From positions 1-28,640 of the IMG/VR virus record IMGVR_UViG_3300021356_000125: a stretch of 28,640 nt of DNA. One strand, given 5' to 3'. This DNA comes from a virus. Below the pieces are notes generated by a model. That model did no database searches and had not been told where the DNA came from. It was given only the letters and a program-made list of their open reading frames with translations. Below, in pieces: positions 18,191 to 28,640 of this stretch; positions within the stretch are counted from its first letter, which is position 1, and each line of letters starts with the position of its first letter. The position numbers and the translations under genes were made by a program.

Positions 18191-19072
18191 CTACTCGTCA
18201 ATCTCAACTACGTTAGCAACTATTTCAGACTCATCGTCAGACAATTCCTCAGGTCTGCGATGCTCCTCCCATTTGCTAATTGTGATTGAGTTCATAGATT
18301 CTACCCACTCAACAAAGTTGTTCAACACCTCTTGATCGTCTGTGGTGATTTCTACTAACTCCCCTAGCTTTGCCTTTACCACACCATAGGTTGCTCCACT
18401 AGGAATACTCTTTACTTCAGACGACAAGTGTAGAAGATGTTGAATAGGAAGCCTGTTCTTTCTTTGAATCTGAGTAAACATATCAGTCATAGCTTTGAAG
18501 CTATCTCTGTTTTTAATCCTCATCAAGAAAGGGAACTCTTTAACATCCACAGGTTTACCATTGGCATCCTTTGCTTTGTCAAGTGTACACAGACCAAAGA
18601 TGACTTTAAACCTATCGGTTGCCCTCATCAGGTCTTGTGTTTCTTGTGGCAACGAACTGAAATCTTTAACATAACCTGACGGTCTACCACAGTTGAACCC
18701 TCCGTAGTTGTCCTTCAAGTCGCCATTCAAAGACGTTGCCATTACAGTACGCAACATCCGTCCTTCCCCCCCATCAGGCTTCTGATAGTTTTTATCGTAA
18801 CGCTGAAACTGAAAGCGTTGCATAAACGGACGAATAGTTATCGTATCACTGTAATACACAGTATCATCAGGGAAAGTTACAGAGTACGCTCCTGCTTTGA
18901 CAATGGCGACTTCCATACTCTCACCATCGACTTGCTTTGTACCCATCACGTTCTGATGAACCTGCTTAATCTCTGCTAAAGCTGATGTGCTTTTCGCAGG
19001 GACATTCGACATCCCCATTAGTTCTGCTAGATCGGCAGGGGATTTTCCTATTACTGCTAATGTGTTATCCAC
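18191..19072 (-). CDS. Probable single-stranded DNA-binding protein
   Basis: A 293-residue protein with a GTG start supported by AAGGAG nine bases upstream. The core is a mixture of beta segments and charged loops with several aromatics (R-F-Q-F-Q-R-Y-D-K-N-Y), and the last 20 residues are strongly acidic (S-D-D-E-S-E-I...E-I-D-E), as in ssDNA-binding proteins such as T7 gp2.5, where the tail recruits polymerase and helicase. It sits between the polymerase and the recombination nucleases, the usual place for such a protein. I do not see a clear OB-fold signature by eye, so the call rests on the tail and on position. Confidence 0.6.
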   Translation of the reverse strand: MDNTLAVIGKSPADLAELMGMSNVPAKSTSALAEIKQVHQNVMGTKQVDGESMEVAIVKAGAYSVTFPDDTVYYSDTITIRPFMQRFQFQRYDKNYQKPDGGEGRMLRTVMATSLNGDLKDNYGGFNCGRPSGYVKDFSSLPQETQDLMRATDRFKVIFGLCTLDKAKDANGKPVDVKEFPFLMRIKNRDSFKAMTDMFTQIQRKNRLPIQHLLHLSSEVKSIPSGATYGVVKAKLGELVEITTDDQEVLNNFVEWVESMNSITISKWEEHRRPEELSDDESEIVANVVEIDE

Positions 19073-19107: not shown

Positions 19108-21183
19108 TCAGACTACATCTTTAACGTCAAGCCAATTATCACCTATTTTAGATTCTAATAGCATTGGAACATTTACATCAATATCATAATAATTTTCTAT
19201 AATTTTTTTAAGATTATTATTAACTTCTCTAATTATTCCTAATACATCTTTCTCCTCTAGTGGGTGAACATCTAACACGACTGAATCATGCACTGTGTTT
19301 ACTAACATACTCTTTAATTCTTTTTGGTCTAAACGCTTCTCTATCTCCAACAATACAATAGGAACTATATCACCTGTAGCAAAGCCCTGAACAGGATAGT
19401 TCTTAATCATGGTAAAGTGGGTTGGAGTTCCACTTCTCCGTCTCTCTACGTCAGGGAAAGCATACTGCCTACCTGATGGTATCTTTATTCTACCAAGGTT
19501 GATAGCCTCGTCACCTAACTTCTTGTGCCACTTAGCTATGCCTTTATACTTGTCCATAAAGTGTGTGTAATACTCAGCCTCAGCTTTCGTTCTGCCGTAC
19601 CCTGTAGCTCCATAGAGAGGGGCAAAGGTATGTGCCTTAGCTTCTTGCCTAGTCGTTGGTTGACCTGCCTCAGAGATAATCTGAGCCGTGTAGGAGTGAA
19701 CATCAAAACCTGTGGACACTTCTTCCATTGCAACTTTATCTTGTGACAATAATGCTGCAACTCTAAATTCTAGCTGTGCAAAGTCTGCTTCAAGTATCTT
19801 ACCCTTCAAGCCAAACTGATCGCTGTTCCAACGAGACGTAAACACTTTCTTAACAGGGAATGTACCACCTCTAGGCATGTTCTGCATGTTAGGATTGCGT
19901 CCACTAAAGCGTCCTGTAGCTGTGACATGCTGTGTAAGACTAACGTGTAACAATCCATCGTCCTTAGTGTAATGCTCTATGCCATCAACAAAGGCTGACA
20001 GGTAGCTTGATATAGCACTTTGCCTTTTAAGGTCTGTCAAGAAAGTTTCTGCTGTTGTCATACCTTTTGTCTTGGCTATGTTGATAAGGCTCTCTAAGTT
20101 ACCTTTACTTGTAGAGAACCCATTGGCACTGACCCAATCCTTAGACGGTGGGAAGAACCCTAGCCCTGCCATGTGCTTTAACTTGGTTAGCTTGTACCCT
20201 CTCGTGTCACACTCAGGACAACGAGTTGGCTTGGCAAAAGGACTTCCATCCTTCTTAGTTTTATACACCTTGCCTTTTCCATGACACTTCTGACAAACAC
20301 TAGCCTTAGTCTTCACCATCATAGAACTATTATCTTTAACAGCCTGTCTAAAGTCATCTTTGTTTTCTACATTGTCAAACGCAACAGCCCACTGTTTCTT
20401 GTCCTTTAGTATCCTAGAGTATATGACCTGACTTACTTGCTCAGGAGAGTTGAGATTTATAGGAGTGTCGCCCATCAGTTCTTTTACTTGTGCGTTTAGT
20501 CGTCTCTCTATCTTAACTAGCTCATCCTCAAAGTCCCAACGCACGTCCTGTAAAGCTTTCCTATCTATGTTGAACCCATTCATATACATTCTTGTTAGCG
20601 TCTTGCATACATTGTTGGTAATGTCTCTTACCTTAACTAACGATTGGCTCTCAGGCTTGGCATACTCGTCTAGCAATCTCCAATACAAAGCCCTCGTTAC
20701 AACTAAGTCTTGTGTTAAATACTCCGACAACTCATTAAGAGGTATCTCGTCTGTTTGAAAGCCCCTACTAAAATAGTCTTTGAGTGTATCTGATTTCTTC
20801 ATATTAAGATCGTATCGTATTGCACAGTTTTCCAGGCTAACAGATTGTTTCTGCCCACGTTGTAATATGTACTCACCTAGCATAGTGTCAAATATTTCTC
20901 CACTATATTTAAATCCACAAGCCCACAGCCATTGTAAGTCATACTGTAAGTTGTGTCCTATCAGGAGTGTTGTATTGTCAAGAACTCTTTGCAATCTTGC
21001 CTGTGCATCATCGTCCTCAAGAGTTTTTTCATTGTGGTCAAATACAAATATAGTTTTCTCATCTTGTTTAATGTGATCCATTATGCCCACAAGTGTCAAA
21101 GAATTGTCAGGCTCAAAGGGATCAAGATGTAACTTGCCATCTCGTTTAGTTGTCGTGTTTTCCACATCAAGTATTATCTTCAT
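19108..21183 (-). CDS. polA: Family A DNA polymerase with DnaJ-type zinc-finger insert
   Basis: 691 residues from the ATG at 21183, coupled to the helicase stop (ATGA); an upstream frame of 18 codons is inside that gene. The 3'-5' exonuclease has all its acidic residues: Asp6/Glu8 (L-D-V-E), Asn78...Asp82 (G-H-N-L-Q-Y-D) and Tyr155...Asp159. The polymerase domain has motif A with Asp467 (D-F-A-Q-L-E), motif B R-x-x-x-K-x-x-x-F-x-x-x-Y-G (512-525) and motif C His631-Asp632. Between them, at about 297-330, C-Q-K-C-H-G-K-G and C-P-E-C-D-T-R-G form a DnaJ-like zinc site (Cys297, 300, 322, 325). The residue equal to E. coli Phe762 is Phe520. This is the replicative polymerase; the insert is the hallmark of HMO-2011-type phages. 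Confidence 0.96.
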   Translation of the reverse strand: MKIILDVENTTTKRDGKLHLDPFEPDNSLTLVGIMDHIKQDEKTIFVFDHNEKTLEDDDAQARLQRVLDNTTLLIGHNLQYDLQWLWACGFKYSGEIFDTMLGEYILQRGQKQSVSLENCAIRYDLNMKKSDTLKDYFSRGFQTDEIPLNELSEYLTQDLVVTRALYWRLLDEYAKPESQSLVKVRDITNNVCKTLTRMYMNGFNIDRKALQDVRWDFEDELVKIERRLNAQVKELMGDTPINLNSPEQVSQVIYSRILKDKKQWAVAFDNVENKDDFRQAVKDNSSMMVKTKASVCQKCHGKGKVYKTKKDGSPFAKPTRCPECDTRGYKLTKLKHMAGLGFFPPSKDWVSANGFSTSKGNLESLINIAKTKGMTTAETFLTDLKRQSAISSYLSAFVDGIEHYTKDDGLLHVSLTQHVTATGRFSGRNPNMQNMPRGGTFPVKKVFTSRWNSDQFGLKGKILEADFAQLEFRVAALLSQDKVAMEEVSTGFDVHSYTAQIISEAGQPTTRQEAKAHTFAPLYGATGYGRTKAEAEYYTHFMDKYKGIAKWHKKLGDEAINLGRIKIPSGRQYAFPDVERRRSGTPTHFTMIKNYPVQGFATGDIVPIVLLEIEKRLDQKELKSMLVNTVHDSVVLDVHPLEEKDVLGIIREVNNNLKKIIENYYDIDVNVPMLLESKIGDNWLDVKDVV

Positions 21184-22403
21184 GCTGAGTACCTTCCTGT
21201 TTCTACATCTAGTTCGACATGAACTGTGCCATGCCATCCTGTTAGTTTGTTCTTGGCTAATCTGATGTGCCGTTGTGGGTCATTACTATCCTGCCCCTCA
21301 ATGTCAGGGTTCTTACTAATTAATAGCATCAAATCTGCCTCTGCTGCCTTTCCTGTCTTACTACCTTCAAGCATGGATTGATTCACGTTTATCTTACCTT
21401 CTGCCTCTGCTGATAGTTGTGACATCCATATGATAGCACAGTTATACTTCTTGGCGATGTTTCTTGCGTGGATTGCCGCCTCCTTTAAATAAATGTCTGA
21501 CCTCTCTGAACCCATACTCGCAAACTTATCACCCATATCAAGCACTATGATGTCAGGATTAACGCTCTTGGCTAGTTGCTCCACGTAGTCCATTCTTTTA
21601 TCCGTTGCATCTTTAATAGATAACAACTGTTTTACAGGCTCGTATCGACTAAGTGCCACCTTTCTATTCTCTAATACTTGTTCACTTGACATATTAGATT
21701 TACAGTACAGGTAGCGTAAGCCAACTCTCTTGTATGCTTCTTCATTGCATAACACCACACACTTAGCCCCTTGGTCTATAAAGCCACCCTCCGATGCTAT
21801 AATACTAGCGTGAAAGGAAGTCTTACCTGTATTAGGTCTAGCCCCTACAATAACAAAGTGTCCCCCACTCAGCCCCTCCACTCGCCTAGCGAGAGATGGT
21901 ATGTTAAACTTCCATTGATACTTAACATTCAAGTGGTCAACCAATGTGTCAAAGCTAATGTCGTCACCTTCAAACTTAAAACTAGGAGTGAAGTCATCCT
22001 GATAGCTATCTAGTATGTTGCGTAGTGGCTCAAGATTACTTTTAGTTCCATTCACATAGTCAAAGCCAAGATTAGCTATCTCCTCACCAACCATTTGTTG
22101 AAACAGTTTAGATAAAACTTCTTTCGCTATATCGTTATTCATTGGTTCTTCTTTTGATAACTTATTGAAGAGAACCTCGTAAGATGTTTTGTTGGCTGAA
22201 GTCATAGTGCCATTGTCAGAAAAGAACAAGGCTTGTAGTTCCGTAAGAGATAAGTTTCTCTCATGCTTACCCATAGCTTGATCTAGTGTACCCTTAATCT
22301 TTCTAACATCTTTACTAAACAATCTATCAGGGCATCGACTTCCCTTATGCTCATCGTAAAAATCTTTCTGCATTAAACTTCTTATTAGTGCTAGTTCTAT
22401 CAT
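21180..22403 (-). CDS. Replicative DNA helicase, DnaB/T7 gp4 helicase family
   Basis: A 407-residue superfamily 4 helicase. Residues 1-110 form a helical N-terminal domain of DnaB type. The RecA-like core has Walker A G-A-R-P-N-T-G-K-T (187-195), a glutamate-bearing segment V-V-L-C-N-E-E (216-222), Walker B D-I-I-V-L-D-M-G-D (284-292), and I-I-W-M-S-Q-L with the sensor glutamine, followed by G-S-K-T-G-K-A-A-E-A-D and a late R-L-A-K-N-K-L-T-G. It should form a hexamer and unwind DNA ahead of the polymerase. No primase domain is fused, unlike T7 gp4; the primase is a separate gene upstream with a nuclease gene between. Confidence 0.94.
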   Translation of the reverse strand: MIELALIRSLMQKDFYDEHKGSRCPDRLFSKDVRKIKGTLDQAMGKHERNLSLTELQALFFSDNGTMTSANKTSYEVLFNKLSKEEPMNNDIAKEVLSKLFQQMVGEEIANLGFDYVNGTKSNLEPLRNILDSYQDDFTPSFKFEGDDISFDTLVDHLNVKYQWKFNIPSLARRVEGLSGGHFVIVGARPNTGKTSFHASIIASEGGFIDQGAKCVVLCNEEAYKRVGLRYLYCKSNMSSEQVLENRKVALSRYEPVKQLLSIKDATDKRMDYVEQLAKSVNPDIIVLDMGDKFASMGSERSDIYLKEAAIHARNIAKKYNCAIIWMSQLSAEAEGKINVNQSMLEGSKTGKAAEADLMLLISKNPDIEGQDSNDPQRHIRLAKNKLTGWHGTVHVELDVETGRYSA

Positions 22404-22840
22404 TTTTCTGACCTCTCTTGTAAATATTTTATAGCTTCTTCTAGTAGGTTCACATTATCGTTAAACCTACCTAACCCTATGTTGCACCCATTGCATATCC
22501 AACCTCTAAATGTGTTAGTTTCATGGCTATGATCTAGCACCCAAACTGACCTGTCGTTCCACCTATCGTATTCCTTTAGCACCTCTTCTGTTTTATTACA
22601 GATAGGACACCTATACTCAGGATCAATCGGTTTTGGATTCTCTCTCATAAGCTGTGTACGTATAGCCTGTTTCTTATTCTCACACTCTTTGCACTCAGTT
22701 CGGTAAGCCTTTCCTACTTTAGGTTCTCTGAATGTGAAACAAGAAACATGCTTCTCCTTGTTGCATTTGGGGCAGAATTTATGATCCTTCAAACCTTTTG
22801 TTTTTTTAACAACAAAAAGTTCTAGCTGTTCATCATCCAT
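22400..22840 (-). CDS. Endonuclease VII-like HNH nuclease with extra zinc ribbon
   Basis: A 146-residue protein. Its C-terminal half matches T4 endonuclease VII (gp49): C-P-I-C (Cys78, 81), V-L-D-H-S-H with Asp103, His104 and His106, then R-G-W-I-C-N-G-C-N (Cys116, 119, Asn120). Asp103 and Asn120 stand for the T4 catalytic Asp40 and Asn62, and the four cysteines for its zinc site. The N-terminal half holds a second set, C-P-K-C (23, 26) and C-K-E-C (50, 53), a separate zinc ribbon not in T4 gp49. The family cuts Holliday junctions, branches and mismatches. Coupled to primase (8-base overlap) and helicase (4-base overlap). Confidence 0.92.
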   Translation of the reverse strand: MDDEQLELFVVKKTKGLKDHKFCPKCNKEKHVSCFTFREPKVGKAYRTECKECENKKQAIRTQLMRENPKPIDPEYRCPICNKTEEVLKEYDRWNDRSVWVLDHSHETNTFRGWICNGCNIGLGRFNDNVNLLEEAIKYLQERSEK

Positions 22841-23627
22841 TTAACTGTACCATTTCTCTAAGCTTGTTAAAATCATTCTCACGTTTGTATTTTAAATCAT
22901 CTTCGATCTGTAGTCCATAAACTTCTGAAGGATCACAGTAACTTTTTAACTCTTTGGTATATTCTATAGTCTTTCCTACTGCGTCAGGATCAAGTGCTAC
23001 AATAACTTTATCAAAAATATCAAGATATTCTTTGTGTTCTTTTAATAAGTTTGTTCCTAACAGAGCTACTCCTGTAACACCTATAAATGTTTCTCCAATA
23101 ACTGTTGCTGACACAACGTCTTCAACAACGACAGCTATACTTTTACTAGGCTTGATACAATACGAATAATATTTTGCCGCCCCTCCGTACTTATACCACT
23201 TAGGCTGTGCATTATACAAAGCCCTACCTATGGCATCAATAACTCTACCATTCTTGTATATAGGAAATACAGCCCTTTGACTTTTACAATCGTACAGCAA
23301 CTCTATGTTTAAATCCCAACGTCTTTTAAATCTCTGCACGTAGGCATTGTTACCATCCGTTATGTACTCAGGCATCTCAAACTTCTTAGGCTCTACCGTT
23401 TCTTCTATACCCTGTATTTTATTCTTAATAGTTTCCACCAACATCGGAGTTAGTGTTGCTCCTTTAACGTCACAACTGTTTCTGTAGCAATTATACAGTA
23501 TCAATCCGTCTTTATTGGTAGCTGTAAACTTCTTTACTCCGTCACATATGGGGCAATCTATAGTGATAGTTTCACCCTCTTTACCATCTAGCCTGCTTAT
23601 GAAGTCATTAGTAGGTTTGTTGATCAT
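22833..23627 (-). CDS. DNA primase, zinc ribbon plus Toprim
   Basis: A 264-residue protein equal in layout to the primase half of T7 gp4. The start at 23627 has GAGGAG about eight bases upstream. An N-terminal zinc ribbon has Cys25/Cys28 (C-P-I-C) and Cys47/Cys52. The Toprim domain begins with A-V-V-V-E-D with Glu169 and has V-I-V-A-L-D-P-D with Asp213 and Asp215 as the metal-binding pair. It makes short RNA primers for the polymerase. It overlaps the recombinase gene by 20 bases and the nuclease gene by 8. No helicase domain follows in the same chain. Confidence 0.93.
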   Translation of the reverse strand: MINKPTNDFISRLDGKEGETITIDCPICDGVKKFTATNKDGLILYNCYRNSCDVKGATLTPMLVETIKNKIQGIEETVEPKKFEMPEYITDGNNAYVQRFKRRWDLNIELLYDCKSQRAVFPIYKNGRVIDAIGRALYNAQPKWYKYGGAAKYYSYCIKPSKSIAVVVEDVVSATVIGETFIGVTGVALLGTNLLKEHKEYLDIFDKVIVALDPDAVGKTIEYTKELKSYCDPSEVYGLQIEDDLKYKRENDFNKLREMVQLNG

Positions 23628-27457: not shown

Positions 27458-27568
27458 CTAACCTCCATAATTAATCTGATAAATGTAATACGCATAGAGT
27501 GAGAGGTATAAAACCCATTCGTCTAATCGCATTGCATATACCATTGTTGTGTAAATTATTAGTCTCAC
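27458..27568 (-). CDS. Possible aromatic membrane peptide (36 aa), GTG start
   Basis: A frame starting with GTG that overlaps the methyltransferase stop (GTGA), with GAGGG six bases before. It is rich in Tyr and Leu (V-L-Y-L-S-L-Y-A-Y-Y-I-Y) and may hold one membrane helix. Its end carries the ribosome-binding site of the next small gene. The tight fit of both ends favours a real gene, but the GTG start and small size leave doubt. Confidence 0.45.
   Translation of the reverse strand: MRLIIYTTMVYAMRLDEWVLYLSLYAYYIYQINYGG
27461..27466 (-). promoter_or_regulatory. Ribosome-binding site for 32-aa gene
   Basis: GGAGGT on the minus strand, four bases before the ATG at 27456 and overlapping the last codons of the preceding small frame (Gly-Gly-stop). 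It supports translation of the tiny gene. Confidence 0.65.
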
Positions 27569-28640
27569 TTCATACCCTCTAGTATGTGAGCTATAACATC
27601 TATAGTCCACCCATTGCCTAGCATCTTGTATTGCTGAGACTTTGAGATAGGCTTAACCACTCCATCAAAATCGCCCATGATACAATGGTTGTCAGGAACA
27701 GTCTGAAGTCTAGCACATTCCTTTGGTGTGAGCTTTCTCCAATGTAGTTCATCAACACTATCCCATTCATGCCTGTCATAGCTACCTCGTCCCCCAACTC
27801 TAACAGCCTTGGACTTGTCTCTGATAGGAGATACTAGATGGTTGTTATGTTCCCATGAGCTTGTGGTGAGTGATGGAGTTTTGCCATCCTTAGCCTTAAA
27901 GCCACCCTTATTCCAACCTCTAGGCTGTTGGTAGATAAGTACATTATCTTTCTGAACAGTTGTTAGACAATTACTTTTATCGTCCCCTCTACTCTCTAGG
28001 TAAGGCTTTAAAGGTAAGTCTAGTTGGTTGTCTTTCCTCACTCCATCAATCTTGCGCCTGTTAACTATACGTCCCCCCTTAGGATCTGTTGTTGCTACCT
28101 TAGGCTCTCTGTGACCACCTTGCATAGTTGTTAGTGTTGGAGCTTTACCCTCAGGAGAATAAACACGCTTGATAATATCATAGCCTTTTATCTCTGCTGT
28201 CTCTCCTACTTGTATACAGCCATCAGCAACAGCGTAAAGACTGTCAGTAGACTGTTTGTACTGATTGGATAGTAAAGCTCCTGACTTATCCTGATCAGGT
28301 GTAAAAGCTCTGCTACGTGGGTTGTTCCTAGCTCTCTCTTGTGCTTGGTCTGAGAGTGTCCAACTATCGTCTAAACCTTGTTCTAATATATCAGCCAAGA
28401 CAATGCCCCTGTCCTCAGGTTGGCTAATAGGTATGGCTTTATATGTGTCTCCATCTCTAATGCCAAACCAATAGAGCCTGTATCTGTTTTGTGCTGATAC
28501 TAAAGAACTGTTGATAGCTGTTGGTTCAAAGCCTAGTATTTCTGAGATTTGCTTTTTGTATTCCTCTTTCATTCTGACATTCTCAAGAAAGATATACTTA
28601 GGTTTTAACTCTTGTACGAGTTCCCACCAATCAAAGAACA
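27565..28640 (-). CDS. dcm: C5-cytosine DNA methyltransferase, start outside window
   Basis: The frame is open to the right edge, so the N-terminal part (AdoMet and Pro-Cys motifs) lies outside; 357 codons are visible. The first visible residues include I-F-L-E-N-V, motif VI of the family. Then come Q-N-R-Y-R (motif VIII), a long target-recognition region of about 230 residues, R-K-L-T-P-K-E-C-A-R-L-Q (motif IX) and Q-Y-K-M-L-G-N-G (motif X). The recognition region has three A-P-T-L-T-T-like units. The enzyme would methylate cytosine in phage DNA, most likely to protect it from host restriction. An internal ATG at 28572 should not be taken as the start. Confidence 0.93.
   Translation of the reverse strand, partial: FFDWWELVQELKPKYIFLENVRMKEEYKKQISEILGFEPTAINSSLVSAQNRYRLYWFGIRDGDTYKAIPISQPEDRGIVLADILEQGLDDSWTLSDQAQERARNNPRSRAFTPDQDKSGALLSNQYKQSTDSLYAVADGCIQVGETAEIKGYDIIKRVYSPEGKAPTLTTMQGGHREPKVATTDPKGGRIVNRRKIDGVRKDNQLDLPLKPYLESRGDDKSNCLTTVQKDNVLIYQQPRGWNKGGFKAKDGKTPSLTTSSWEHNNHLVSPIRDKSKAVRVGGRGSYDRHEWDSVDELHWRKLTPKECARLQTVPDNHCIMGDFDGVVKPISKSQQYKMLGNGWTIDVIAHILEGMK

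Follow-up and report, generated by a model that had tools for sequence, protein, structure and literature searches.

The family A DNA polymerase encoded in the window (the whole stretch of DNA analysed, a 28.6-kb virus record) carries, in the loop that joins thumb helices H1 and H2, a large insertion in which two pairs of cysteines flank a hairpin; all four cysteines are invariant among the relatives in the matches listed, and the positive charge of the hairpin is conserved as well. We lean, with modest confidence, towards the reading that this basic hairpin, pinned by zinc at the tip of the thumb, grips the primer-template DNA as an in-built processivity or grip element.

The finger pointed out in an earlier note on this DNA is real and is an already published hallmark of the HMO-2011-type phages, while its structural location, its match to zinc site II of DnaJ and its charge pattern are new and together argue against a chaperone and make its function directly testable. 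The earlier HMO-2011 paper credited with the partial DnaJ domain is reportedly that of Kang et al. 2013. The earlier note was right in comparing the arrangement with that of HMO-2011, as the GenBank record of this phage notes PF00684 in its polymerase and the partial DnaJ domain has been described in HMO-2011-type polymerases (PMC9038755, PMC6918029), where it serves as a criterion for recognizing such phages (PMC9038755, PMC8528129). HMO-2011-type phages have been reported as dominant and widespread in the sea, and the role of the finger has so far only been guessed at, the only functional hint found being that E. coli DnaJ serves the replication of phage lambda (PMC9038755). None of the papers searched treats HMO-2011 and the thumb together.

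Polymerase gene and phage group

The features discussed are collected in Table 1. The Pfam matches of the polymerase to PF01612 and PF00476 lie above the cut-off, which identifies it as a family A enzyme with a 3'-5' exonuclease. The AF2 model of the whole enzyme (pLDDT 93.1) shows a Pol I-type fold with a well-predicted insert, matches the Bacillus Pol I large fragment with a Z value of 34.9, and retrieves other family A polymerases from a viral structure library. An alternative start at an in-frame ATG at 21237 would yield 709 residues; the start used here is supported by the fact that helicase and polymerase genes overlap by 4 bases in HMO-2011 too.

Table 1. Features of the polymerase and of neighboring genes in the window (residue numbers refer to the 691-residue product)
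Feature	Position	Strand	Remarks
DnaB-like replicative helicase	21180..22403	(-)	upstream partner gene of the polymerase
Primase with Toprim domain	22833..23627	(-)	own N-terminal CxxC...C...C zinc ribbon
Family A DNA polymerase, 691 aa	19108..21183	(-)	start overlaps helicase stop by 4 bases
3'-5' exonuclease domain, residues 56-172	20668..21018	(-)	Pfam PF01612, E=5e-9
Thumb helix H1, residues 247-255	20419..20445	(-)	AF2; within NLNSPEQVSQVIYSR; Pol I NLSSTKQLQTILFEK
Thumb insertion, residues 259-356	20116..20409	(-)	98 aa, net charge +11
Putative DnaJ-type zinc finger, residues 291-338	20170..20313	(-)	between strands 290-296 and 330-338
Putative zinc knuckle 1, residues 297-304	20272..20295	(-)	CQKCHGKG
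Basic hairpin between cysteine pairs, residues 301-321	20221..20283	(-)	HGKGKVYKTKKDGSPFAKPTR; charge given in text
Putative zinc knuckle 2, residues 322-329	20197..20220	(-)	CPECDTRG
Thumb helix H2, residues 360-372	20068..20106	(-)	AF2; just past GFSTS; S357 corresponds to Pol I STSEEVL
Rest of polymerase domain, residues 354-685	19129..20124	(-)	PF00476, E=3.7e-50
293-aa protein with acidic C-terminal tail, candidate SSB (unproven)	18191..19072	(-)	directly after polymerase

The closest isolates in polymerase identity are CRP-2 and CRP-603 (61.5%), CRP-207 (58.7%), and HMO-2011 (56.4%), with 100% coverage at 55-62% identity for CRP-2, CRP-207, HMO-2011, CRP-1, and CRP-345, and the window therefore belongs to an HMO-2011-type marine phage. 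As judged from its sequence, the polymerase is a further member of the HMO-2011-type family with nothing essential differing: HMO-2011, CRP-1/2/3, HTVC033P, and more than 200 metagenomic genomes share its family and the partial DnaJ domain with its pair of CXXC motifs, the second of which is slightly degenerate here.

Some observations concern the other genes of the window. The Toprim match of the primase is sub-threshold, and its zinc ribbon holds an inner TNKDG turn; because the primase carries this ribbon of its own, the idea that the finger of the polymerase substitutes for a missing primase zinc domain was rejected. A cell-wall hydrolase (PF07486; 24827-25255, minus strand) is encoded just past the integrase gene in the replication-side gene block, and a protein encoded at 27565-28572 (minus strand) matches C-5 cytosine methylases over residues 236-334, corresponding to only the C-terminal third of the profile.

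Position and fold of the insert

The earlier note had placed the insert between the exonuclease and polymerase domains, which does not hold. When the polymerase is aligned by profile with E. coli Pol I, NLNSPEQVSQVIYSR falls on NLSSTKQLQTILFEK at H1 and STSKGNLE on STSEEVLE at H2 (S357-T358-S359 being STS), and the insert therefore lies within the thumb of the polymerase domain, in the H1-H2 loop, as it does in the AF2 model (helix names follow the Klenow literature). The inter-domain appearance arises from the Pfam limits of the exonuclease and the main DNA_pol_A stretch (Table 1). Against 14 residues in E. coli Pol I and 21 in the finger-less relative StenR_269 (about 32% identity), the H1-H2 loop of this polymerase has 98. 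Since such short-loop polymerases (StenR_269, Pol I) exist without the finger, it is dispensable for catalysis as such. In the Stenotrophomonas phage StenR_269, a gene with a thioredoxin domain lies immediately upstream of the polymerase despite the short loop. In the Taq sequence, we take residue E507 to lie in the H1-H2 loop and S515 at its end. Both of these thumb residues touch the primer strand in KlenTaq (PMC6345897).

Cys297 (20293-20295), Cys300 (20284-20286), Cys322 (20218-20220), and Cys325 (20209-20211) were confirmed within the region singled out by the earlier note. Knuckle 1 is a perfect CXXCXGXG motif, and knuckle 2 is without the first glycine, with T327 instead. A profile search of the kind recommended there gave a match of PF00684 (DnaJ_CXXCXGXG) in the whole protein with an E value of 1.2e-4 (residues 291-332; 22.7 bits, under the Pfam cut-off of 32.7), and 126 of 127 distinct inserts match this profile at E<=0.01. 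In the PDB, the insert profile matches E. coli DnaJ best (1exk, E=1.2e-5); the alignment falls on repeats 2 and 3, which we take to pair as zinc site II. These matches indicate a likeness to DnaJ beyond chance and bear out the view that the polymerase contains two half-repeats of the DnaJ central domain. The J domain is absent, as the earlier note stated, with no PF00226 match in the polymerase or anywhere in the window; likewise, no Pfam match to the C-terminal substrate-binding domain of DnaJ was obtained in the polymerase, and its two CXXCXGXG repeats compare with the four repeats and two zinc sites of DnaJ.

Strands lead in and out of the knuckles in both models, that of the whole enzyme and that of the finger alone (pLDDT 83). 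Searches with the lone finger by VIA-align returned weak matches (Z 2.0-4.2) to DnaJA2, Anti-TRAP, UvrA, DnaJ, BSD2, and lambda Q, nearly all rows representing DnaJ-type or related zinc sites and several of them non-chaperones, and Foldseek against the PDB gave nothing below E 0.001 (best E 0.21). By its sequence, and weakly by its model, the insert is assigned to the DnaJ-type fold, and the four cysteines are putative zinc ligands.

Relatives were collected in three scans of IMG/VR with search peptides outside the finger, taking the best 80 matches of each, and from isolates, so that very distant members are under-sampled; the matches listed comprise 188 distinct full-length polymerases, the most divergent at about 33% identity. 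Every one of these 188 has the four cysteines; a look for relatives without them, as suggested by the earlier note, found none within the group (0 of 188). G313, G329, and G340 are invariant in the same 188 polymerases among the matches listed, G302 is Gly in 187 and G304 in 183, only 90 have Gly at the first glycine of knuckle 2, and the remaining cysteines of the polymerase vary. In 144 of 155 distinct inserts, 21 residues separate the two cysteine pairs, as against 33 in the remaining 11; the longer spacing is that of a CRP-738-like subgroup and indicates that the hairpin tolerates a 12-residue extension.

Finger-less polymerases were found only further out, at about 24-32% identity. In a tblastn search of 50,697 phage records (E<=1), the only polymerases with the insert were those of HMO-2011-type phages, the remaining weak matches not being annotated as polymerases, and a search of plasmids yielded nothing convincing. 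Among genome contigs, the finger was found in marine metagenome bins, on what are most likely phage contigs, and was not found in three distant polymerases (<=26% identity). The bins with HMO-2011-type polymerases are labelled Euryarchaeota, Flavobacteriales, Neomarinimicrobiota, and others; as same-named, same-length contigs are filed under two different organisms, they look like misbinned phage contigs.

The net charge of the hairpin between the two cysteine pairs (21 residues) ranges from +2 to +11 (mean +5.6) and is never negative. In 149 of 186 polymerases this charge reaches at least the 95th percentile of all stretches of equal length in that protein, with a median at the 99.5th percentile. 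K291, K308, and K310 are Lys or Arg in 96-98% of the relatives among the matches listed, and K262 in all of them. The corresponding hairpins of DnaJ from E. coli and from two viral contigs, a small control, have charges of 0 or +1 and feature Phe, Met, and Gln. The H1-H2 loop is also net positive (+2 to +9) in every finger-less lineage examined.

Possible roles of the finger

In the reading we favor, one zinc site of the DnaJ type, equivalent to zinc site II with its repeats 2 and 3, would have been grafted into the H1-H2 loop at the thumb tip, where the two CxxC knuckles would hold one zinc ion and pin the base of the 21-residue basic hairpin (K-x-K-K-D-G-x-P). The hairpin would point towards the DNA, extend towards the primer-template backbone behind the active site and keep the polymerase on the duplex, and the group would possess its own processivity or grip element instead of an accessory factor of the thioredoxin kind. 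In family A polymerases it is the thumb that holds the duplex behind the active site, and insertions in the thumb recurrently alter grip. The reading follows precedents in which the thumb insertion of T7 clamps the DNA through basic residues that contact its phosphates, T7/T3 thumb insertions raise processivity when transferred to Pol I or Taq (PMC5984650), and a lysine-rich thumb insertion of plant organellar polymerases has been modelled on duplex DNA (PMC7699545). Against it stand the ability of basic patches to bind acidic protein tails as well, the weak fold match of the lone finger, and the existence of short-loop polymerases that do without it.

The strongest rival to DNA grip takes up the first of these points and regards the finger chiefly as a protein dock for the acidic tail of the phage SSB or for another replisome protein, which we consider possible but rather unlikely as the main role. 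The candidate is the product of the next gene downstream (about 290 residues), which carries a conserved acidic C-terminal tail, as an SSB would: the last 20 residues have a net charge of -9 in this phage and of -10 in HMO-2011, and in 123 out of 134 relatives the charge is -3 or lower. However, neutral tails occur in a few relatives of this protein, and profile searches of Pfam, PHROG, and PDB gave no match marking it as an SSB. By position, it is the homologue of gp13 of HMO-2011. A precedent for docking is again found in T7, where the tail of the SSB gp2.5 contacts the thioredoxin-binding domain of the thumb (PMC7699545); since the T7 thumb insertion does both jobs, docking is compatible with DNA grip and both may hold for the finger.

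It appears improbable that the insert is a structural or evolutionary ornament, in which zinc steadies an enlarged loop without DNA or protein contacts of its own. Other phage polymerases do contain differing large insertions (51-134 residues) in the same loop, but the presence of the putative zinc ligands in 188 of 188 polymerases and the near-invariant surface lysines exceed what a stabilized spacer would need, and the loop is basic in every lineage examined. A chaperone-like element recruiting host DnaK or holding unfolded proteins would agree with the homology to zinc site II of DnaJ and with the link to lambda replication drawn in PMC9038755, yet it is very unlikely, because the window lacks a J domain and the polymerase the other DnaJ domains, two repeats are present rather than four, and a basic hairpin stands where DnaJ has a hydrophobic one; like zinc sites also occur in the non-chaperones Anti-TRAP, UvrA, and lambda Q. 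Least probable of all is a redox switch, in which oxidation would free the zinc from the four cysteines and turn replication down, an idea that draws on the thiol chemistry linked to DnaJ-type zinc sites (PMC5818400), but the absolute conservation of the cysteines fits a structural zinc site equally well.

With DNA grip as the preferred reading, the label of a "partial DnaJ" domain becomes a testable question, namely whether grip or processivity suffers when the finger or its lysines are removed.

Comparison with known systems

The Cys-rich domain of DnaJ (1exk, 1nlt) resembles the finger in that a CxxCxGxG knuckle lies at either end of a hairpin, whereas the finger differs in its single putative zinc site, the lack of J and substrate domains, and a basic instead of a hydrophobic hairpin.

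The earlier statement that T7 polymerase has no comparable element is valid insofar as T7 has no H1-H2 insertion, but it overlooks the basic 76-residue insertion in the T7 thumb. This thioredoxin-binding domain, which we take to span approximately residues 258-334, ends where the H1 motif FNPSS begins (residue 334, also the beginning of Pfam DNA_pol_A), and the T7 insertion therefore occupies the preceding loop. Like the insert described here, it is a basic element inserted into the thumb of a family A enzyme (net +6 in 76 residues), but it lies before H1, one helix earlier, whereas the finger's insert follows H1, and it is without cysteine knuckles and needs thioredoxin. A direct correspondence of the two was rejected, as they lie on opposite sides of helix H1 and are neighbors only; by analogy, a common role in grip and partner binding is possible.

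The basic thumb insertion of plant organellar polymerases, for which a hold on duplex DNA has likewise been proposed (PMC7699545), differs in that no zinc finger has been described there and in its separate origin. In polymerases of Zobellviridae and Autographiviridae (ICP2, MEP402, R8W, LIMEzero), the same loop is enlarged and net positive, but it has no CxxC pairs and no demonstrable sequence homology to the finger. A derivation of the KKDGxP hairpin from the stretch K-x-G-x-x-x-G-x-P-K in this loop of Zobellviridae and similar polymerases was not supported, since this stretch was not picked in a position-specific score scan and the profile alignment paired it elsewhere. In VP41s3, ICP2, and MEP402 (Zobellviridae) and in Alcaligenes phage QDWS535, the polymerase is encoded by two ORFs, split between thumb region and palm, and the first three have an extra small ORF between the halves.

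Against this background we propose, tentatively and with some inclination to doubt, that a DnaJ-type zinc site was converted from a chaperone hairpin to a DNA clamp or replisome hub, representing a second, independent answer to the thioredoxin problem of T7. If the finger does provide grip, it would constitute a compact processivity module of natural origin, which could be transferred to other polymerases.
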